Assembly (NCBI GenBank): GCA_000687975.1
Contig: JIAB01000001.1
Coordinates: 1,674,001 to 1,738,000 of the forward strand
Direction of reading: 5' to 3'
DNA length: 64,000 nt
Origin: Lachnospiraceae bacterium AC2031
Lineage (GTDB): Bacteria; Bacillota; Clostridia; Lachnospirales; Lachnospiraceae
Below, piece by piece: positions 1 through 50,630 of the stretch; positions within the stretch are counted from its first letter, which is position 1; the number at the start of each line of letters is the position of its first letter. The position numbers were made by a program, and so were the translations under genes. The notes below the pieces were generated by a model. The model made no database searches and was not told where the DNA came from. It saw only the letters and a program-made list of their open reading frames with translations.

Positions 1-639
1 TGTAGCAACTGCACCAGCGAACTTTTCCTTCTCAGTCTTCTGTCCCTTTACTACTGGGATTGCAAGAACCTTCTCACAGAAATCTGCATATACATTAAGC
101 ATCTGGATAGTTCTTTCCTGAGCCTCTTCAGCTGTAGCATGTGCTGTATGTCCTTCCTGCCACAGGAACTCTCTTGAACGAAGGAAAGGTCTTGTCTCCT
201 TCTCCCAACGAACAACTGAGCACCACTGATTGTAAACCTTTGGAAGGTCTCTATAAGATGTGATGTCCTTCTGATAGAAATCACAGAACAGAGTCTCTGA
301 TGTAGGTCTTACACAAAGCTTCTCCTGAAGCTCGTTAAGTCCACCGTGAGTTACCCATGCAACCTCTGGAGCAAATCCTTCAACGTGATCCTTCTCCTTC
401 TGAAGAAGTCCTTCTGGAATCAGCATTGGAAGATATACATTCTCAACTCCAGTCTCTTTAAACTTAGCATCCAGCTGCTTCTGGATAAGCTCCCAGATAG
501 CGTAACCAGCTGGCTTAAGTACCATAAATCCTTTAACACTTGTGTAGCCTGTAAGGTCAGCCTTAACAACTACATCTGTATACCACTGCGCAAAATCCTC
601 TTCCATAGAGGTAATTGCTTCAACCTTTTTATCTGCCAT
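1..639 (-). CDS. proS: Prolyl-tRNA synthetase, archaeal/eukaryotic-like type (5' part only)
   Basis: Charges tRNA-Pro with proline in the cytoplasm. The 213 residues present are the N-terminal part; the rest lies beyond the left window edge. The frame starts [20 protein letters not shown] and holds the class II motif-1 region ([14 protein letters not shown]). It continues with the hallmark loop [19 protein letters not shown], then motif 2 with its substrate-contacting segment [12 protein letters not shown] and [19 protein letters not shown]. These features fit the short type-3 ProS common in Clostridia, not the E. coli type with an editing insertion. The ATG follows an AGGAG-like site on the minus strand. 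A hairpin leader (665-708) lies between the upstream rluA-type gene and this start. Confidence 0.95.
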
Positions 640-664
640 TTTTTTTCTCCTATATATTCAGTCC

Positions 665-721
665 AGCTCCTTGCAGCGAGCAGCCCCTGCTGCTCCCTTC
701 CAGGAGCTTTGTGCCTTCGGC
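665..721. repeat. Nested hairpin leader between RluA-type gene and proS
   Basis: An outer stem AGCTCCT (665-671)/AGGAGCT (702-708) encloses an inner stem GAGCAGC (678-684)/GCTGCTC (689-695) with a 4-base loop. A further small hairpin GCC-TTC-GGC follows on the plus strand. No U-run follows in the minus direction, so a simple intrinsic terminator is unlikely. The TTC triloop resembles the arms of the elements at 5344-5570 and, on the opposite strand, 49836-49958. It may be an RNA processing or attenuation structure in the proS leader, or a short member of that repeat family. Confidence 0.55.
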
Positions 722-723
722 AT

Positions 724-1518
724 CTACCATTCAACCTGATCTATAATGTCAAATGCCATTCCTTCCGGTTCTCTATGTAAGAACACTTCTTCACCGGTAA
801 TAGGATGAACAAATATCATCTTTGTTGAATATAGACCAATCTCATTCTTCTCTTTATTCTTAGCGCCCTTATTCTTGTTTCCGGCACCCTTTTTACCATT
901 TGCACCCTTTACGGGACGTGGATGCTCCTTCACCACTCCGTACTTGGTGTCGCCCCAGATAGGCGCACCTTCGGCTGCCATCTGACAGCGGATCTGGTGA
1001 TGTCTTCCAGTAACAAGCTCAACTAAAAGATATGAGATAGGACCTTCATCTGTATCCAGCTCGTCAAGCACCTCGTAACGGAGTTCAGCGTACTTGGCAC
1101 CCTTCGTACCTTCTGGAACCACCTTCGTGACATTTGACTTCTTGTCATGAAGGAGATAGCTCTTAAGAGTTCCTTCCTCATCATTCATAAAGCCGCGAAC
1201 TACCACCTGATAGAACTTAGCTATCTTGCGGTCGTGAACCATGTCGGAAAGCTTAGCTGCAGTAGTCTCATCCTTTGCAAAAAGAATGATTCCCGCAACT
1301 GGTCTGTCCAGACGGTTGATAACAGCCACATATGGCTCTTCAACATCCTCTGAACTCTGCCCCGCCTCCGCAGCTGCCTCACACGCCTTTTCGTAGAGAT
1401 ACTCCTTCACAAGAGTTATCATGTCTACGCCGTAAGTTTTGTCCAGCTGACTTGGTACACCGTAAGGCTTTATACACGCTATTAAATATTCATCTTCATA
1501 AACTATGTCTAATTTCAT
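724..1518 (-). CDS. RluA-family RNA pseudouridine synthase
   Basis: Predicted to isomerise uridine to pseudouridine in rRNA or tRNA. The 264 residues have the RluA core: an N-terminal beta start (DIVYEDEYLIACIKPYGVPSQ) and the catalytic loop VINRLDRPVAG. The catalytic Asp is near residue 71, and the usual HRLD reads NRLD. A central KFYQVVVRG segment and the late motif ELVTGRHHQIRCQMA follow. There is no S4 domain, so it is the short type. A Lys/Gly/Asn-rich insertion (about residues 204-227) sits before the last strands and may contact RNA. It lies 3 bases downstream of the aminotransferase gene and is probably co-transcribed with it. The target base cannot be assigned from sequence. Confidence 0.88.
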   Translation of the reverse strand: MKLDIVYEDEYLIACIKPYGVPSQLDKTYGVDMITLVKEYLYEKACEAAAEAGQSSEDVEEPYVAVINRLDRPVAGIILFAKDETTAAKLSDMVHDRKIAKFYQVVVRGFMNDEEGTLKSYLLHDKKSNVTKVVPEGTKGAKYAELRYEVLDELDTDEGPISYLLVELVTGRHHQIRCQMAAEGAPIWGDTKYGVVKEHPRPVKGANGKKGAGNKNKGAKNKEKNEIGLYSTKMIFVHPITGEEVFLHREPEGMAFDIIDQVEW

Positions 1519-1521
1519 ATA

Positions 1522-2811
1522 TTATTTCTCTGAGAGAAGCTTCTGTACAGAAACAAGACGTACACAGATTGTAAAGAGCTCTGCAGCAAGCTTCAGATCT
1601 TCATTCTTTGGATATGTAGGAGCGATACGAATGTTGCTGTCGTGTGGGTCCTTGCCATATGGCCAAGTAGCACCAGCCTTTGTCATTACAACTCCTGCCT
1701 TCTTTGCCTTATCAACTATATCCTTAGCACAACCATCAAGAGAATCGAAGCTGATGAAGTAGCCACCATTTGGCTTTGTCCACTCACCGATACCAAGACC
1801 ACCAAGTCTTGACTCAAGAGTATTAAGTACAACCTCAAACTTAGGTCTGATGATCGCAGCATGCTTCTTCATATGCTCTGTCATTCCGTGAATGTCACCG
1901 AAGAAACGTACGTGACGAAGCTGGTTAACCTTATCATGACCGATTGTCTGATGTGTCATCTGCTTCAGGATATCCTCCATGTTGTTAGGTGATGTAGCAA
2001 GTGCAGCTATACCACTTCCTGGGAAGGAAATCTTTGATGTTGATGCAAACTTATATACAAGATCAGGATTACCTACGCGCTTGCACTCAGCAAGGATCTC
2101 AACAAGGTAGTCCTCCTTATCCTCATAAAGGTGGTGAATACCATATGCATTGTCCCAGAAAATTCTGAAATCATTTGCAGCTGGCTTAAGTCTGGCGAAA
2201 CGTCTAACTGTCTCGTCAGAATATGAATAACCCTGTGGGTTTGAATACTTAGGTACGCACCAGATACCCTTGATTGACTCATCCTCAGATACAAGCTTCT
2301 CAACCATATCCATATCAGGGCCTTCTGGGCTCATAGGTACTGGAATCATCTCGATTCCGAAATACTCTGTAATACCAAAATGTCTATCATAGCCAGGTAC
2401 AGGGCAAAGGAACTTTACCTTGTCCAGCTTGCACCAAGGAGTATTACCCATGATACCATGAGTATATGCTCTGGCGATTGTATCATACATTACATTTAAA
2501 GAAGAGTTACCATAGATAATGATGTTGTCGGGGTTGTTCTCCATCATATCTCCAATAAGTATCTTTGCCTCCTCAATACCAGTAAGGACACCATAGTTGC
2601 GGCAGTCAGTCCCATCTGCGCAAGTAAGGTCTGCTTCTGAATTAAGGGCATCCATCATTCCCATGGATATATCAAGCTGCTCCTTGCAAGGCTTTCCTCT
2701 ACTCATATCCAGGTGAAGATCCATATCCTGGAACTTCTTGTACTCTGCCTTTACAACGGCGAGCTCTGCCTCAAGTTCTTCTTTTGACATTTCTACGTAA
2801 GGCTTCATCAT
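1522..2811 (-). CDS. PLP-dependent aminotransferase, class I fold (aspartate aminotransferase-like)
   Basis: A cytoplasmic PLP enzyme of 429 residues that probably moves an amino group between an amino acid and a 2-oxoacid. The fold-type I landmarks are visible: YGNSSLNVMYD near 100-110, the Asn of KYSNPQG near 191, the cofactor-ring Asp in FWDNAYG near 220, and the Schiff-base Lys in FASTSKISFPGSG near 260. The ending SNIRIAPTYP carries the carboxylate-binding Arg. The long N-terminal arm and DMSRGKPCKEQLD match the clostridial group annotated as Asp aminotransferase or alanine-glyoxylate-like. The start is one of two adjacent ATGs after AAGGAGGAAA. A promoter with a palindrome lies upstream (2872-2909). 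The exact substrate is not determinable. Confidence 0.88.
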   Translation of the reverse strand: MMKPYVEMSKEELEAELAVVKAEYKKFQDMDLHLDMSRGKPCKEQLDISMGMMDALNSEADLTCADGTDCRNYGVLTGIEEAKILIGDMMENNPDNIIIYGNSSLNVMYDTIARAYTHGIMGNTPWCKLDKVKFLCPVPGYDRHFGITEYFGIEMIPVPMSPEGPDMDMVEKLVSEDESIKGIWCVPKYSNPQGYSYSDETVRRFARLKPAANDFRIFWDNAYGIHHLYEDKEDYLVEILAECKRVGNPDLVYKFASTSKISFPGSGIAALATSPNNMEDILKQMTHQTIGHDKVNQLRHVRFFGDIHGMTEHMKKHAAIIRPKFEVVLNTLESRLGGLGIGEWTKPNGGYFISFDSLDGCAKDIVDKAKKAGVVMTKAGATWPYGKDPHDSNIRIAPTYPKNEDLKLAAELFTICVRLVSVQKLLSEK

Positions 2812-2871
2812 TTTCCTCCTTAAATGAATTAGAAAATTCGTAAAAACACGGCTTTTCGTGCACCTTTCAGT

Positions 2872-2909
2872 ATTCTACCACAACTACTTTTCATTCGTAA
2901 ATATACGAA
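2872..2909 (-). promoter_or_regulatory. Promoter and candidate operator of the aminotransferase operon
   Basis: On the minus strand a -10-like TAGAAT (2872-2877) lies 18 bases from a -35-like TTTACG (2896-2901). The -35 falls inside a perfect palindrome TTCGTA-N4-TACGAA (2894-2909). A further TTCGTA half site occurs closer to the gene (about 2837-2842). This arrangement suggests repressor binding over the -35. The protein that would bind it is unknown. Confidence 0.5.
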
Positions 2910-2961
2910 ATCTAAAAAAATCATCCAAAAATAGCCGAAAAATAAGGCAAAATGCAATCTA

Positions 2962-2989
2962 AAAGGACAGGGATAAAACCCTGTCCTTT
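2962..2989 (-). terminator. Intrinsic terminator of the CAP-domain gene
   Basis: A perfect 11-bp stem (AAAGGACAGGG at 2962-2972 with CCCTGTCCTTT at 2979-2989) and a 6-base loop lie 25 bases after the stop of the CAP gene. On the minus strand the stem runs into a T-rich stretch. Confidence 0.85.
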
Positions 2990-3013
2990 AAATCCATAAT
3001 ATTAAAGTACTGA

Positions 3014-4240
3014 TTACTGCATAGCCCCGTCAGGTCCAAGATAGTAGCCATCGATACTTCTGTTAGTTACCATGTAACCACTACCATCGAAGTAGTACCA
3101 CTTGCCGTCAATCTTCTGCCACTGATTTACTGGGTACCAGCCTGATGAATCAGAGTACCACCAGCCAGATCCATCACCGTGCCAGCTTCCGACTCCTTCG
3201 TAGGTCCAGCCGCCATTTCCGCTGAGCCAGTAACCGTTAACCCATTCGCTGGATGCCATATGGCCATCACTGTGGAAGTAATACCAGGTTCCGTCGATTG
3301 CAGCCCAACCTGTGATCATATATCCATCTTCGCCAAATGCGTACCACTTGTCGCCTGATTTTAACCAGCAATTCTGAGCATAGCTGCCGTCTGAAAGTGA
3401 GAACCACCAGCCTCTGCCATCGTTCTTCCACTCACCCCTAACAGGTCCGTTTGGCTGTCCACCGCCTGATCCAGAACCACCAGATGATCCACTTGATCCA
3501 GAACCGATGCTGTCTCCACTCTTCAGCACACCTCTACTTTGAAGTCTGCTGTAAATCTCACTAGTTACACCAACAGTAAATGTTGTTGTTACTCTGTCAG
3601 ATCTTCTCTGAGCTGGGTTAGTAGCTTCGTATGCACTAAACTCCTGTGACCAGTAGTAATAATAATTTCCAGCATAGTAAACCATACCGATACCAACTGA
3701 CTTCCATGAAGCCTTATCAGTTGACTTTAATCCATAAAGGATATTATCTCTATGTCCGCTTGAACGCATCCATGAAGACTTATCCATATCATCTGAGTTA
3801 TTAGGATCGATGTCCTTGCTCTGGTTGTACATAACGCTAAATGGAGTCTTCTGTCCATAAGCGATGTTTTCACCCATAGCCTTGCCACTAACTGTGAAGC
3901 AGCTTGTTCCATCTGGTCTTGTATGAGCTCTTGAATTATCGATCTCGCTATGATTATATGCAGCTCCGATGACAGCCGACTCTGCAGCTCTCTGCATAGC
4001 AGCTTCCATAAGATCTACATCCATTGTTACTTCGCAAAGACCATTCTTTCTTCTCTCTTCATTAACGTAATCGAGAACCTCATAACAATAGTCATAACAT
4101 CTCAAAGCAGTGACTGTAATATAAGCATCAGCCGCATCAACGGACTTAATGTTATACTTAGGAATGATCACTATACCAAGGATCATCATCACTGTGAGAA
4201 TCAGCGACATAGCTGTTCTCATGTGTTTGTTTTTCAACAT
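3014..4240 (-). CDS. Secreted CAP/SCP-domain protein with C-terminal cell-wall-binding repeats
   Basis: An exported surface protein of 408 residues. The ATG at 4240 is preferred because GGAGGTG lies just upstream; a longer start would overlap that site. A Lys-rich N-terminus and hydrophobic core (LILTVMMILGIVIIP) form a signal peptide. Residues about 45-215 are a CAP (PR1/SCP) domain: LDYVNEERRKNGL, the His of YNHSEID, GENIAYGQ, SGHRDNILYG, VGIGMVYY and WSQEF. A Ser/Gly linker follows. Then come aromatic repeats (GWWFSLSDGSY, KWYAFGEDGYM, TWYYFHSDGHM, GWWYSDSSGWY, KWYYFDGSGYM) of the choline/glucan-binding type, which likely hold it to the wall. Its function is unknown; CAP domains are rarely catalytic. 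Confidence 0.9.
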   Translation of the reverse strand: MLKNKHMRTAMSLILTVMMILGIVIIPKYNIKSVDAADAYITVTALRCYDYCYEVLDYVNEERRKNGLCEVTMDVDLMEAAMQRAAESAVIGAAYNHSEIDNSRAHTRPDGTSCFTVSGKAMGENIAYGQKTPFSVMYNQSKDIDPNNSDDMDKSSWMRSSGHRDNILYGLKSTDKASWKSVGIGMVYYAGNYYYYWSQEFSAYEATNPAQRRSDRVTTTFTVGVTSEIYSRLQSRGVLKSGDSIGSGSSGSSGGSGSGGGQPNGPVRGEWKNDGRGWWFSLSDGSYAQNCWLKSGDKWYAFGEDGYMITGWAAIDGTWYYFHSDGHMASSEWVNGYWLSGNGGWTYEGVGSWHGDGSGWWYSDSSGWYPVNQWQKIDGKWYYFDGSGYMVTNRSIDGYYLGPDGAMQ

Positions 4241-4359: not shown

Positions 4360-5313
4360 TTATCGAGCAAGCACGAGGTATACAAAATAAGCCGCGTAGC
4401 ACAGAAGCATTATTAATCCACCAGCTCTTCCCAGTTTTTTGTTCTTAAAAACAAGAACAAAAAGTAGTATAGCCGCAAAAAGCGCCACAAAACCATCAAT
4501 CATGAAGTTGGCACCTTCGCTCATATATGGAAGTGGAATAATAAGGGTTGTAAGTCCTAAGATAAAAAGAATATTGAACAGGTTACTACCTACAATATTT
4601 CCGATAGCAATATCTGCACTACCCTTTCTTGCAGCAGTAACAGAAGTCATAAGCTCAGGAAGAGAAGTTCCAAGAGCAACTATGGTAAGTCCGATAATTC
4701 TGTCAGATACTCCGAAAAGTCTGGCGATATCAGCAGCACCAGCCACCGCAATCTTACTTCCAAGAACAATAACGAAAAGACCACCCAGAATAAAGATCGG
4801 GATCAACCACAGCTTAATGTCCTTAACATTTTCGCCCTCGCCCTCAGAATCTGTATGCTTTGAGTACCAGATAAGGTAACCCATGTAAGAAAAGAGCGCC
4901 AGCAGGAATATAATTCCTGTAAGTCTGGTAAGCTTACCGCCTATCATTCCCCAAGCCACCATAACAATAGTAGAGATAATGACAAATGGAATATCTACTT
5001 TTACTGTTGCCGGCTTAACTTTTAGAGTCGTTATCAGGGCGGTTACACCAAGAATCACCCATATATTCATTATATTGCTGCCGATAACATTTCCTATTGA
5101 TATACCGTTGTTACCAGCAACTGCTGCGCTTAGACTTACAGCAGCTTCAGGCGCACTGGTTCCCATAGCAACTATGGTAAGTCCGATAACCAGCTCAGGC
5201 ACGCCCAGCTTCTTTGCTACAGCAGCGGCGCCATCGACGAAGAAGTCGGCACCTTTGATGAGCATGATAAAGCCCAGCACGATCTTAACTAAACTAATAA
5301 ATATATTAAACAA
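4360..5313 (-). CDS. CaCA-family calcium/sodium (cation/proton) exchanger, YrbG-like
   Basis: An inner-membrane antiporter of about 317 residues with two inverted halves. Each half carries an alpha-repeat: AMGTSAPE with GNVIGSNIMNI, and ALGTSLPE with GNIVGSNLFNI. The conserved Glu residues coordinate the cation. About ten hydrophobic segments are visible, with an acidic cytosolic loop (DSEGEGENVKD) between the halves. A TTG start at 5313 is chosen because GGAGGAATTC precedes it at correct spacing. An ATG ten codons further upstream would put the Shine-Dalgarno inside the gene and lies next to the multi-armed repeat at 5344. The gene appears to be transcribed alone. Na/Ca versus H/Ca exchange cannot be told apart here. 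Confidence 0.9.
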   Translation of the reverse strand: MFNIFISLVKIVLGFIMLIKGADFFVDGAAAVAKKLGVPELVIGLTIVAMGTSAPEAAVSLSAAVAGNNGISIGNVIGSNIMNIWVILGVTALITTLKVKPATVKVDIPFVIISTIVMVAWGMIGGKLTRLTGIIFLLALFSYMGYLIWYSKHTDSEGEGENVKDIKLWLIPIFILGGLFVIVLGSKIAVAGAADIARLFGVSDRIIGLTIVALGTSLPELMTSVTAARKGSADIAIGNIVGSNLFNILFILGLTTLIIPLPYMSEGANFMIDGFVALFAAILLFVLVFKNKKLGRAGGLIMLLCYAAYFVYLVLAR

Positions 5314-5343
5314 AAGAATTCCTCCACGAACTTCATTTCTCAT

Positions 5344-5570
5344 CTATTCACGGTTGACTCAAAAACACTCTTAAGTCCGCATCGCATAACGCTTATTCTT
5401 ATGCAAGCATAAATAAGCTTATATGCGATACTCTACTGCCTCCTTCGGAGGCACTTAATCGTGTTTTTTGAGTCACCTGCTTCGCAGGTATAATACGAAT
5501 TACGTCTGATTGGTTGTTGCCTGCAAGCAGTCACAACCAATCATCCATAATTCGTATTAACCGTGAATAG
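5344..5570. repeat. Multi-armed self-complementary element (cloverleaf-like), copy A
   Basis: This element fills most of the 387-base gap between the exchanger and tyrA. A closing stem CTATTCACGGTT (5344-5355)/AACCGTGAATAG (5559-5570) surrounds three arms. Arm 1 is GACTCAAAAACAC (5356-5368)/GTGTTTTTTGAGTC (5461-5474); inside it lie a nested hairpin ATCGCATA..TATGCGAT with GCTTATT/AATAAGC and an ATGC-AA-GCAT tip, plus GCCTCC-TTC-GGAGGC. Arm 2 is ACCTGC-TTC-GCAGGT (5475-5489). Arm 3 is TAATACGAATTA (5491-5502)/TAATTCGTATTA (5548-5559), continuing as TGATTGGTTGT/ACAACCAATCA with a CTGC-AA-GCAG tip. Almost every base is paired. No protein is encoded. It could be a mobile repeat, a structured RNA or a cruciform. 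Confidence 0.8.
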
Positions 5571-5590
5571 TAACGTCCACTGCACATTTT

Positions 5591-5630
5591 ACACTACACA
5601 CTTGACGTAAGCAAGGTGTAGTGTTATACT
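5591..5630 (+). promoter_or_regulatory. Promoter and candidate operator of tyrA fusion gene
   Basis: TTGACG (5602-5607) and TATACT (5625-5630) are separated by 17 bases, a strong sigma-A-type promoter. A perfect 9-bp inverted repeat ACACTACAC (5591-5599)/GTGTAGTGT (5616-5624) brackets the -35 box, which suggests repressor binding. Because the gene is tyrosine biosynthetic, an aromatic-amino-acid-responsive repressor is plausible but not shown. Confidence 0.7.
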
Positions 5631-20149: not shown

Positions 20150-20247
20150 TGCAAAAAAGCCGACAACTTTCCTGCATTTAGTAATTGCAGAAGTCATCAG
20201 CTGTATCAGCGGTTTGGATTTGCATCCAGGGAGACATCATTCCCCTA
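20150..20247 (-). promoter_or_regulatory. Fluoride (crcB-motif) riboswitch and terminator platform
   Basis: On the minus strand the leader has a 5' stem-loop AGGGGAATGATGTCTCCCT (20228-20246), a joining segment ending AAACCGCTG, a short hairpin, then CAGCTGATGAC-TTCTGC. These match the crcB consensus (AACCGCTG...CAGCTGATGA plus a pseudoknot strand that can pair with the 5' loop, 4 of 5 bases). Downstream, TCTGCA..TGCAGGAA and a later TTTTTT could form an alternative terminator that overlaps the pseudoknot strand. Fluoride binding would then allow read-through to the antiporter. Confidence 0.88.
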
Positions 20248-20259
20248 TTTGTTTTCATG

Positions 20260-31052: not shown

Positions 31053-31132
31053 TTACATCACCTCTTCACAAATCAACGTATGTAAGATTATACCACCTTT
31101 ACTGCATCAATTCTACATAAATATACCGTAAA

Positions 31133-31148
31133 TGTTTCACGTGAAACA
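31133..31148. other. parS site 1
   Basis: A perfect 16-bp palindrome TGTTTCACGTGAAACA matching the Bacillus parS consensus, 80 bases upstream of parA. It lies in the 357-base gap between argS and parA, which otherwise is AT-rich and codes for nothing visible. Confidence 0.95.
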
Positions 31149-31220
31149 TAATACAGAAAGATCCAATATGCAATTAAAAAATATTCCAGACATATTTAAG
31201 ATATTTATCTACTATATCTA

Positions 31221-31236
31221 TGTTTCACGTGAAACA
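31221..31236. other. parS site 2
   Basis: A second identical TGTTTCACGTGAAACA, 88 bases from site 1. Confidence 0.95.
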
Positions 31237-31353
31237 TAATACAACATATAGAAAATAATAGGAAAATATAGGAATTTTTACATTAATGATAAGAATTATA
31301 TCATATACTCATATTTTGAAAGAAAAATAATAAATAAGGAACGAATAATAAAA

Positions 31354-31379
31354 GACCATGTTTCACGTGAAACATGGTC
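31354..31379. other. parS site 3 inside a 26-bp palindrome (argS terminator)
   Basis: TGTTTCACGTGAAACA (31359-31374) is extended by GACCA and TGGTC to a 26-bp perfect palindrome. On the minus strand it lies about 30 bases after the argS stop and is followed by TCTTTTATTATT. It can therefore fold in RNA as an intrinsic terminator while being a ParB site in DNA. Confidence 0.85.
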
Positions 31380-48976: not shown

Positions 48977-49004
48977 TGTGCAAATAATAGAGAGATTTGA
49001 AAAG

Positions 49005-49847
49005 ATGAGAGAAATAAGTGTAAATGATATCAAAAAGGAAGTCGCAAAACTCTGTGTTGATGCGAATCTTCAGTTGAGCCCTGAGATGGAGCAGTGTATT
49101 GCTGCTGCAAAGGAGAATGAGAGAGGCGAACTCGCTAAATCCGTTCTTGGTCAGCTTCAGGAGAACATGGAAATTGCGCGTGAAGATGGAATACCGATAT
49201 GTCAGGATACTGGCATGGCGGTATTCTTTGTTGAGTTAGGACAGGAAGTTCATATCGTTGATGGTGACCTCACTGAGGCAATAAATGAGGGCGTGAGATA
49301 TGGCTATACAGAAGGCTATCTTAGAAAGTCTGTTGTTGGTGATCCTCTCATCAGAGAGAACACAAAGGACAATACTCCAGCCATCATTCATTACGATATA
49401 GTTCCTGGAGATAACCTAAAGATAACAATCACTCCAAAGGGCTTTGGAAGTGAAAATATGAGTAAGCTTGTTATGCTTAAGCCAGCAGATGGAGTTGAAG
49501 GTGTAAAGCAGGTTGTTATCGATGCAGCTAAAAGTGCAGGACCAAATGCATGCCCACCATTCGTACTCGGAGTAGGAATCGGTGGAGATTTCGAGCTGGT
49601 TGCTAAGCTTGCAAAGAAGGCACTTACAAGAGAGCCAGGAAGTCATAATCCACTTCCTCATATTGCAGAGCTTGAGACAGAATTATTAGAGACAATCAAT
49701 TCACTGGGAATTGGACCTGCAGGACTTGGTGGAGATACCACAGCCCTTGCAGTAAATATAGAAACCTACGCAACACATATTGCTGGGTTGCCTGTGGCAG
49801 TGAACATGTGTTGTCATGTTGATAGACATAGCACAGTAATTCTTTAA
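49005..49847 (+). CDS. Class I fumarate hydratase, alpha subunit (4Fe-4S)
   Basis: One half of a two-subunit iron-sulfur hydro-lyase, interconverting fumarate and malate (tartrate dehydratase relatives share the fold). The ATG at 49005 (280 residues) fits the family start REISVNDIKKEVAKLCVDAN. Cluster-region motifs are GIPICQDTGMAVFFVE and AAKSAGPNACPPFVLGVGIG, with DNTPAIIHYDIVPGD and VAVNMCCHVDRHSTVIL near the end. Cys residues in CQDTG, NACPP and NMCCH are likely ligands. The last codons (GTA ATT CTT TAA) lie inside the closing stem of the element at 49836-49958. That element separates it from the beta subunit. Confidence 0.9.
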   Translation: MREISVNDIKKEVAKLCVDANLQLSPEMEQCIAAAKENERGELAKSVLGQLQENMEIAREDGIPICQDTGMAVFFVELGQEVHIVDGDLTEAINEGVRYGYTEGYLRKSVVGDPLIRENTKDNTPAIIHYDIVPGDNLKITITPKGFGSENMSKLVMLKPADGVEGVKQVVIDAAKSAGPNACPPFVLGVGIGGDFELVAKLAKKALTREPGSHNPLPHIAELETELLETINSLGIGPAGLGGDTTALAVNIETYATHIAGLPVAVNMCCHVDRHSTVIL

Positions 49848-49958
49848 TTTTTCTGCGAAGCAGATGCAAGAATATAATTTCATACATGGAAGCTTGCTTA
49901 CAAATGTATGAAATTATATTCTTGTATATAGTCCGAAGGACAAAAATTAAAGAATTAC
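49836..49958. repeat. Multi-armed self-complementary element (cloverleaf), copy B
   Basis: A 17-bp perfect closing stem (49836-49852 with 49942-49958) surrounds three arms: CTGC-GAA-GCAG (49853-49863), a 21-bp perfect stem 49867-49887/49904-49924 with an AAGC-TT-GCTT tip (49890-49899), and GTCC-GAA-GGAC (49931-49941). Two arms abut the closing stem exactly, giving a four-way junction. The left strand includes the last three sense codons and stop of the fumarase alpha gene. No ORF is present. Confidence 0.85.
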
Positions 49959-49987
49959 GTTATATTGTCTAAGTCGACGTATTCATC

Positions 49988-50047
49988 ATCACAGGCTTTG
50001 AGCAGACAAAGTCTGCGTCAGACCGCAAAGCGGGATGCGCCTGTGAT
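49988..50047. repeat. Second multi-armed hairpin element in fumarase alpha-beta gap
   Basis: A closing stem ATCACAGGC (49988-49996)/GCCTGTGAT (50039-50047) holds two arms: GCAGAC-AAA-GTCTGC (50002-50016) and CCGC-AAA-GCGG (50023-50033). Together with copy B it fills nearly all of the 228-base gap. Confidence 0.8.
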
Positions 50048-50075
50048 TGTGTAAAAAAATATAAAGGATATAGTT

Positions 50076-50630
50076 ATGGAAAGAAGACTAAATGTTCCTA
50101 TGTCTGATGAAGAAATCAGCCAGCTTCGTGCAGGTGATATGCTTTATCTCACAGGAACTATATATACAGCAAGAGATGCTGCACATAAAAGAATGTATGA
50201 AACTCTGAATGAAGGTGGAAAGCTTCCTTACGATATAGAGGGTTCTTTTGTATATTATCTTGGACCAACACCAGCAAAGCCTGGTCAGGTTATAGGTTCT
50301 GCAGGACCAACAACTTCAAGCAGAATGGATAAATATACACCACTTCTTCTGAGTAAAGGTCTTAAGGGAATGATCGGAAAGGGCAAGAGAAGCCCTGAGG
50401 TTGTAAGTGCAATTAAAGAAAACGGCGCTGTTTATATGGCTGCAATCGGTGGTCTTGGTGCACTTCTTTCTAAGAGGATCGTTCAGTCAGAGGTTATCGC
50501 ATATGATGATCTTGGAACAGAAGCAATCCGTAAGCTTACAGTAGAGGATCTTCCGGTTGTTGTTATCATTGATACAGAAGGCAATAATCTATATGAGACT
50601 GCGGCAGAAAGCTTTTTCGAAAGTCTCTAA
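50076..50630 (+). CDS. Class I fumarate hydratase, beta subunit
   Basis: A 184-residue partner of the alpha subunit, forming the substrate side of the active site. It starts RRLNVPMSDEEISQLRAGDM. Landmarks are LTGTIYTARDAAHKRMYETL, GPTPAKPGQVIGSAGPTTSS then RMDKYTPLLLSKGLKGMIGK, and IGGLGALLSKRIVQSEVIAY. A ribosome site (AAAGGATATAGTT) precedes the ATG. Normally the two subunits are adjacent; here 228 bases of folded repeat separate them, which may modulate the ratio of products. Confidence 0.92.
   Translation: MERRLNVPMSDEEISQLRAGDMLYLTGTIYTARDAAHKRMYETLNEGGKLPYDIEGSFVYYLGPTPAKPGQVIGSAGPTTSSRMDKYTPLLLSKGLKGMIGKGKRSPEVVSAIKENGAVYMAAIGGLGALLSKRIVQSEVIAYDDLGTEAIRKLTVEDLPVVVIIDTEGNNLYETAAESFFESL

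Follow-up and report, generated by a model that had tools for sequence, protein, structure and literature searches.

Integron attC sites are sequence-variable, structure-conserved palindromes that are located at gene 3' ends, and their strand is set by extrahelical bases. ERIC/RU-1, RUP, Correia/NEMIS, YPAL and CIR repeats measure 100-200 bp, occupy intergenic sites and are predicted to give long stem-loop transcripts, and ERIC reportedly is co-transcribed and makes the upstream message less stable (PMC2229807). REP and BIME sequences, which are linked with RAYT (TnpA-REP), are palindromes that adjoin stop codons; REPs are reported to be 20-40 bp long and high in copy number, and the termini of GTAG REPs often to provide the flanking ORF with its stop codon (PMC3733652). 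Moreover, 92 stem-loop repeat families from 40 genomes are presented as dispersed and intergenic and as having a common structure (PMC2267715). How does the structured gap between two fumarase genes compare with these systems?

The window, which is the whole 64,000-nucleotide stretch of DNA analysed here, contains a four-way junction at 49836-49958 of the plus strand. The junction lies in the gap between the genes for the fumarate hydratase alpha subunit (48978..49847, plus strand; NCBIfam NF004885) and the beta subunit, an Fe-S hydro-lyase (50076..50630, plus strand; NF005310). It spans 123 nt, of which 3 nt are unpaired, and is predicted to fold as RNA at -54.5 kcal/mol (z -10.7; as good in 0/200 shuffles). 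DNA parameters yield a nearly identical fold, again with a z of -10.7. The structure is closed by a 17-bp stem (49836-49852 with 49942-49958) and carries three arms, all of which are defined by folding and covariation: mini-hairpin 1 (CTGC-GAA-GCAG; 49853..49863), a long central stem-loop (49864..49927) and mini-hairpin 2 (GTCC-GAA-GGAC; 49931..49941). The 5' arm of the closing stem, GTAATTCTTTAATTTTT (49836-49852), consists of the last three sense codons of alpha (GTA ATT CTT), the stop codon TAA and 5 nt (TTTTT), and its 3' arm (49942..49958) is complementary to the alpha gene end according to the fold, arm swaps and ORF-end complementarity. The original prediction had drawn the junction with this closing stem over the alpha stop, two 4-bp GAA-loop arms and few or no unpaired bases, and folding reproduced each of these features; the central arm is also present, but in place of the 21 bp assigned to it RNAfold gave 24 bp, one of them G-U, and 3 bp more at the apex. 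The apical sequence, AAGCTTGCTT, belongs to the family type GCAAG-CTTG-CTTGC.

Two further elements, both absent from that prediction, extend the structure outwards. An outer stem pairs 49818-49828 with 49966-49978 on the plus strand. Its 5' arm, GTTGATAGACA, covers the alpha codons V-D-R and the start of H, and its 3' arm, TGTCT-AA-GTCGAC, carries a 2-nt bulge, so that the last codons of alpha form the predicted 5' arms of two stems. Downstream, the branched element B (49984..50050, plus strand), which is likewise dispersed in the genus, comprises a closing stem and two hairpins, as supported by folding, covariation and a model search. When 49830-50075 is folded jointly, the predicted energy is -90.2 kcal/mol (z -10.2), and the probable beta ribosome-binding site recognised by inspection (AAAGGA; 50063..50068, plus strand) lies outside both structures and is unpaired. 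Of the 52 ORF ends in the window, none is as complementary to its downstream 150 nt as that of alpha (16.5, compared with 12.0 for the next and a median of 8.0). The GAA-loop mini-hairpins share the core SCGAAGS, of which both strands of the window together contain 18 occurrences, with 10.2 expected and as many in 0/100 shuffles. Elsewhere in the window, 31132-31375 holds three copies of the perfect palindrome ATGTTTCACGTGAAACAT, which we take to resemble chromosome-partitioning parS sites.

The structure has been retained among relatives while its sequence has changed. In an alignment of 12 fumarase copies, which omits L004 as a near-copy of L003 and preceded the finding of L050, 85.5% of the cells at junction pairs are paired, compared with 62.2% after shuffling and 36-44% when the arms are slid. 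Changes on both sides are seen in 37/44 pairs (24.1 after shuffling), including 9/9 counted pairs of the closing stem, and the junction covariation score is 0.604, compared with 0.184 for shuffled and 0.12-0.17 for slid alignments. Element B shows both-side changes in 11/17 pairs over 9 copies. The outer stem is present in 12/13 loci, L013 having none, and its 11 pairs are Watson-Crick or G-T in 129/132 cells over the 12 loci. The third base of the Val codon was compensated from T-G to A-T in L007, L011 and L021, and the first base of the Asp codon from G-C to T-A in L006, where alpha changed from Asp to Tyr; one T-G pair is unchanged in 12/12 loci. Random drift without conservation of pairing, which had been set as the outcome that would speak against the original prediction, was looked for in the relatives' gaps and not found. 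Taken together, the aligned loci show that the predicted junction is conserved through compensatory change and that the coding end of alpha provides the 5' arm of two of its stems.

Is this use of a coding end a general property of the junction? When 12 foreign arms were swapped in, the own 3' arm matched the last 42 alpha coding bases at least as well as any of them in 9/13 loci; in L005, L007, L008 and L010 it was not the best fit. Pairing with the gene end was also compared with 300 shuffles per copy (p uncorrected for copy number; L015, at a contig edge, and L061, L113, L118 and L122 omitted). At fumarase, p was 0.02 or less in 9/13 copies, and L006 (0.053), L007 (0.057), L008 (0.18) and L050 (0.66) fell short of that. 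The ABC-transporter locus reached p<0.05 in 3/6 copies (0, 0 and 0.033), copies at guaA in 0/12, and other stop-adjacent copies in 1/13 (L115, p 0.04), as expected by chance. The results at guaA and at the other copies indicate that the gene-end arm is a local feature and not a rule of the family. The proposal that the stem uses a gene end thus applies to fumarase and partly to one ABC-transporter locus, but does not extend to guaA or to 12/13 of the other stop-adjacent copies. RNAfold returned a clean four-way junction for 11/14 fumarase copies and for 35/70 copies overall; in many of the others, the two mini-hairpins pair mutually or the arms differ.

The junction belongs to a dispersed family. 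A BLAST search of the own genome found the window copy alone, and the resulting view of a unique feature was overturned by the dispersed copies that a covariance model of the junction identified. The model matched 52/61 genomes of the genus at E<=0.01, with sites outside fumarase at E 1e-9 to 1e-18, and a model of B matched 35/61; both counts are floors, given that 64 (junction) and 82 (B) candidates were scored per genome. The own genome holds three junction-model matches at E<=0.01, and the maximum in any genome is 9, again a floor with 64 of about 500-3300 candidates scored. Across the taxonomic family, 5/298 genomes matched, the own included, with four from other genera at 1e-7, a floor with 13 candidates scored per genome; one copy in another genus adjoins a gene whose end we take to be that of groEL. 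Rfam detected only two tRNAs and a fluoride riboswitch (20181-20253, minus strand) in the window and nothing at the junction. A search of the junction against Rfam 15 gave no family at gathering: all 25 matches at E<=10 were below gathering, 18/25 were miRNA hairpin families, and the best (2.6e-5) scored 32 bits where gathering requires 245. No description of the family appeared among the titles and abstract openings listed for open-licence papers.

We read 70 copies among the matches listed; L096, a 53-nt match, was dropped from the mismatch, anatomy and location counts. The shared anatomy includes two mini-hairpins, closed by C-G with G-N-A loops in 59/70 loops of the 35 clean copies, and a locus-specific long arm, usually tipped by GCAAG-CTTG-CTTGC or a related sequence with a TTTA, CTCG or CTAG loop and often bearing a 2-nt bulge on its 3' side. 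The canonical form has the outer stem GAGCCAAAGTC / GACTTTGGCGA; outer stems of the GAGCCAA/TTGGCGA type exist, and the ends are not fixed by any clean empty-site pair. A structural alignment of 90 model matches proved too irregular for counting pairs and was set aside. A search with the apex motif left the window copy itself unmatched, and one of its matches in the own genome (L164) falls within coding-like sequence.

Related structures were seen at several sites. On the minus strand of the window, 5326-5600, upstream of the ORF at 4360-5343 (minus), is predicted to form a composite with an RNA energy of -122 kcal/mol over 275 nt, comprising an outer stem, a long hairpin, a GCGAAGC hairpin and an inner three-way junction in which CAGTAGAG separates two hairpins; it matches the junction model weakly (E 5e-4). 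A three-way module of the order stem-hairpin-CAGTAGAG-hairpin-stem lies near the copies L096, L117, L126 and L134, and the GTAG that precedes its hairpin recalls REP tags. L139 and L142 are two similar composites from a single genome of another genus; beyond the junction their flanks are structured and alike, and they are perhaps parts of a larger element.

The copies occupy a preferred position. Outside fumarase and guaA, 17 of 43 copies sit on the sense side just downstream of a stop codon and another 17 follow a terminator-like hairpin. On the antisense side, the corresponding number is 15/43 (stop codon 10, terminator-like hairpin 5). Three of the remaining 9 copies (L062, L100 and L121) follow tRNA genes, as determined by a tRNA scan that covered 39 loci and left out L128, one of the nine. 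The L102 copy lies between a SAM riboswitch and the downstream ORF; some leaders had been read as T-boxes, but Rfam, run over 20 loci, gave only this SAM riboswitch, and that reading was abandoned. The own genome carries another composite where an ABC-transporter ATPase gene ends, and this second composite occurs whole or in part at this gene in 6/29 fetched loci, the own included, with two more unmeasurable. Family copies are also found at guaA and at gene ends that presumably belong to groEL and obgE; the ORFs next to such copies were called by length alone. These positions show that the predicted family sits mostly in sense at gene 3' ends, with housekeeping genes among them. The earlier suggestion that gene ends are targeted by the element, or are where it forms, therefore stands as a statement of location, given that 34/43 of the copies outside fumarase and guaA lie in sense after a stop codon or terminator-like hairpin.

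Presence of the junction at fumarase is patchy. When 61 genomes of the genus were searched at the DNA level, 44 gave a match, and the 30 best-scoring loci, the own included, were fetched and oriented, so the sample favours gaps that bear the element. The junction is present in 13/30 alpha-beta gaps, remnants of B alone in 2/30 (L016 and L020) and neither in 15/30; the last group ranges from 1 nt (L012) to 235 nt, and some of its gaps hold other inserts. The covariance model search added L050 as a fourteenth fumarase copy. Lachnospiraceae bacterium NE2001, a member available in culture, carries the element as well (L033), and its record has an identical 26-base start of the junction. On a protein tree, junction presence requires 7 changes for 13 rows, and its clustering is weak (as low in 18/500 shuffles). 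The tree allows a single old gain followed by several losses, as with L012 (gap of 1 nt) next to its element-bearing sister L009 and L019 next to L016 with its B remnant. Empty gaps, for which the original prediction had proposed a comparison of close relatives, do exist (1, 2, 13 and 17 nt), but the tree fits old presence with repeated loss and fresh insertion equally. Because the junction is lacking from half of the gaps read, no fumarase operon absolutely needs it, which shows, within the loci compared, that it is dispensable. The gaps of L027 and L032 contain unrelated palindromes or tandem repeats, L027 being a long near-perfect inverted repeat; from these inserts, the alpha-beta gap seems to attract insertions.

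How do the arms change? L003 and L004 differ by 14-16% in their coding genes, yet agree at 243/246 positions in the stretch that opens with the final 18 alpha bases and runs up to the start of beta. L007 and L011 are 95.2% identical in the alpha CDS and match at 158/159 positions in the downstream B leader, yet their stems are far apart (22/32 and 19/33 in the closing arms, 39/62 in the long stem-loop), and the last 18 alpha bases differ at 5. At guaA, L047 and L055 combine close genes (CDS 0.89) with different long arms (51/69), and L058 and L097 combine less close genes (CDS 0.866) with near-equal arms (67/69). Multi-base blocks changed on both arms are seen between L003 and L005 and between L007 and L011. 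Arm evolution looks like block replacement with change on both arms rather than single-base substitution, possibly through recombination or template switching. On the basis of the L007/L011 pair, with its near-identical alpha and leader, divergent stems and 5/18 differing alpha end bases, we also considered a modular, structure-defined cassette at gene 3' ends that would be swapped between species as a both-arm block, adopting and sometimes rewriting the last codons of its host, such that coding end and element would co-evolve as one folded unit. We regard this reading as quite unlikely.

Mismatches in the stems bear on the strand in which the element acts. In the long arm, G-T mismatches outnumber A-C mismatches by 68 to 16 over 69 copies (more G-T in 36 copies, more A-C in 8), and by 34 to 10 over the 37 copies outside fumarase and guaA that are oriented by genes, terminators or tRNAs. 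The fumarase copies alone give 6 G-T and 3 A-C (p 0.51), and the guaA closing stems give 15 A-C and 2 G-T, largely at one shared position, in counts that include only stems scoring 9 or more. Pooled p-values for these mismatches are too small, given that the copies were picked by an RNA-scored model and are partly related. If both strands were equally important, G-T and A-C counts would be alike; the G-T excess therefore points to the sense strand. The sense strand, as RNA, is the likely acting form, and single-stranded DNA of the same strand is a possible one.

We favour, with about even confidence, a structured intercistronic composite that is one copy of a dispersed, multi-branched, palindromic family of REP/ERIC-like character and that would serve as a 3'-end barrier between cistrons. 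The element would act in the transcript. Once the stop codon of alpha has been cleared by the last ribosome, both the closing stem and the outer stem would shut over the last codons, forming a very stable knot followed by branched element B, and the beta ribosome-binding site would stay free. The knot may then be a 3'-end barrier or an RNase III-like processing point that sets the relative lifetimes of the alpha and beta messages and separates their translation, a role consistent with the length of the duplex, the enclosure of the alpha stop and the accessibility of the beta ribosome-binding site. The suggestion in the original prediction of an operon RNA that tunes alpha/beta expression is plausible, given the compensatory pairs and the G-T excess of the sense strand. 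The element most likely originated as a REP/ERIC-like mobile repeat that settled at a gene end, and its pairing would be kept by selection, perhaps aided by template-switch mutation or allelic replacement. Counting against the barrier, 17/43 of the other copies follow a terminator-like hairpin, and efficient termination would leave them untranscribed unless it is read through. The absence from half of the gaps, the four fumarase loci whose own 3' arm is not the best fit, the small G-T margin within fumarase, the A-C surplus in the guaA closing stems and the clean junction in 35/70 copies weigh against it as well.

Could the pairing have arisen independently of any function in RNA? Template switching is reported to create and maintain RNA hairpins (PMC8794818), and functionless or selfish palindromic DNA in which one arm is copied onto the other during replication would yield both pairing and compensation. 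The mostly Watson-Crick arm pairs, the multi-base block changes on both arms and the repeated absence of the element all fit such an origin. However, several features are not predicted by template switching alone: a G-T excess tied to one strand, the retention of a T-G pair in all 12 loci, the recurrent loops and apex, and the sense bias at gene ends. In addition, arm-onto-arm copying leaves the wholly new arm sequence in L007/L011 unexplained; we consider this explanation possible though rather unlikely. A specific cis-regulator of fumarase, such as a riboswitch, attenuator or thermometer, would account for conserved loops and stems between both subunit genes, but the core also occurs beside unrelated genes (guaA, the ABC transporter, tRNAs and the gene ends that we assume to be groEL and obgE), many fumarase operons lack the junction and the beta ribosome-binding site stays free in the predicted fold, all of which makes such a regulator highly improbable.

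An element acting as single-stranded DNA, whose junction would fold while DNA is replicated or transferred and would be recognised by an HUH or tyrosine recombinase, as are REPs, IS200/IS605 ends or attC, is unlikely in our estimate. C(GNA)G loops are unusually stable in DNA, and they make up 59/70 of the mini-hairpin loops in the clean copies. The near-identical fold under DNA parameters, the 2-nt bulges that would confer strand identity, and the dispersal and block exchange of the family also agree with this reading, and G-T pairs are tolerated in single-stranded DNA too. In L051, where the junction copy lies behind guaA, an ORF whose start we take to be that of an IS200/IS605 TnpA begins 259 nt further downstream. 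Against a recombinase substrate, copies are few, as seen in the three matches of the own genome, and an origin from Y1/RAYT genes was rejected in that the flanking sequence read around the three own Y1 genes showed no junction-type element (upstream of L137, it is mostly coding); two of these genes adjoin unrelated palindromes. Among these Y1 genes, no transposase sharing the ends of the junction family was identified. The Y1-transposase-like genes at L136 and L137 adjoin strong palindromes of their own.

The composite that we favour, an intercistronic member of a dispersed repeat family, represents an ornate, covarying family that is unlisted in Rfam 15 and abuts gene 3' ends in one Lachnospiraceae genus. 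It also provides a naturally occurring example of a conserved structure that has the end of a protein-coding gene as one of its strands. Furthermore, the fumarase copies, with their both-arm turnover, block replacement and repeated absence, are a test bed for distinguishing stem covariation that arises from selection from that produced by template switching.

The family is new and absent from Rfam 15, and it is of a known kind, that of dispersed palindromic intergenic elements, with an anatomy and a tie to the host gene that are both unusual. Like attC, it is sequence-variable, structure-conserved and located at gene 3' ends; unlike at attC sites, no R'/R'' core boxes were seen in the window copy by inspection, and there is no cassette array. 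It resembles REP/BIME sequences in adjoining stop codons, although neither a GTAG nor a CGTC tag was seen at the junction foot by inspection, and its members measure about 120 nt (about 230 with B) and are few per genome as found, whereas REPs are reported to be short and abundant (PMC3733652). It is dispersed, intergenic and held together by a common structure like the catalogued stem-loop families, but none with the junction anatomy was found in the excerpted catalogue (PMC2267715). Dispersal in intergenic sites, one mark of MITE- and ERIC-like repeats, was found for the junction family, and its length and predicted long stem-loops recall ERIC/RU-1 and the repeats grouped with it. Unlike ERIC and the other small repeats, the junction family is three-armed with two mini-hairpins, its stem sequences vary by locus while the structure is constant, and at fumarase the gene end itself serves as an arm.
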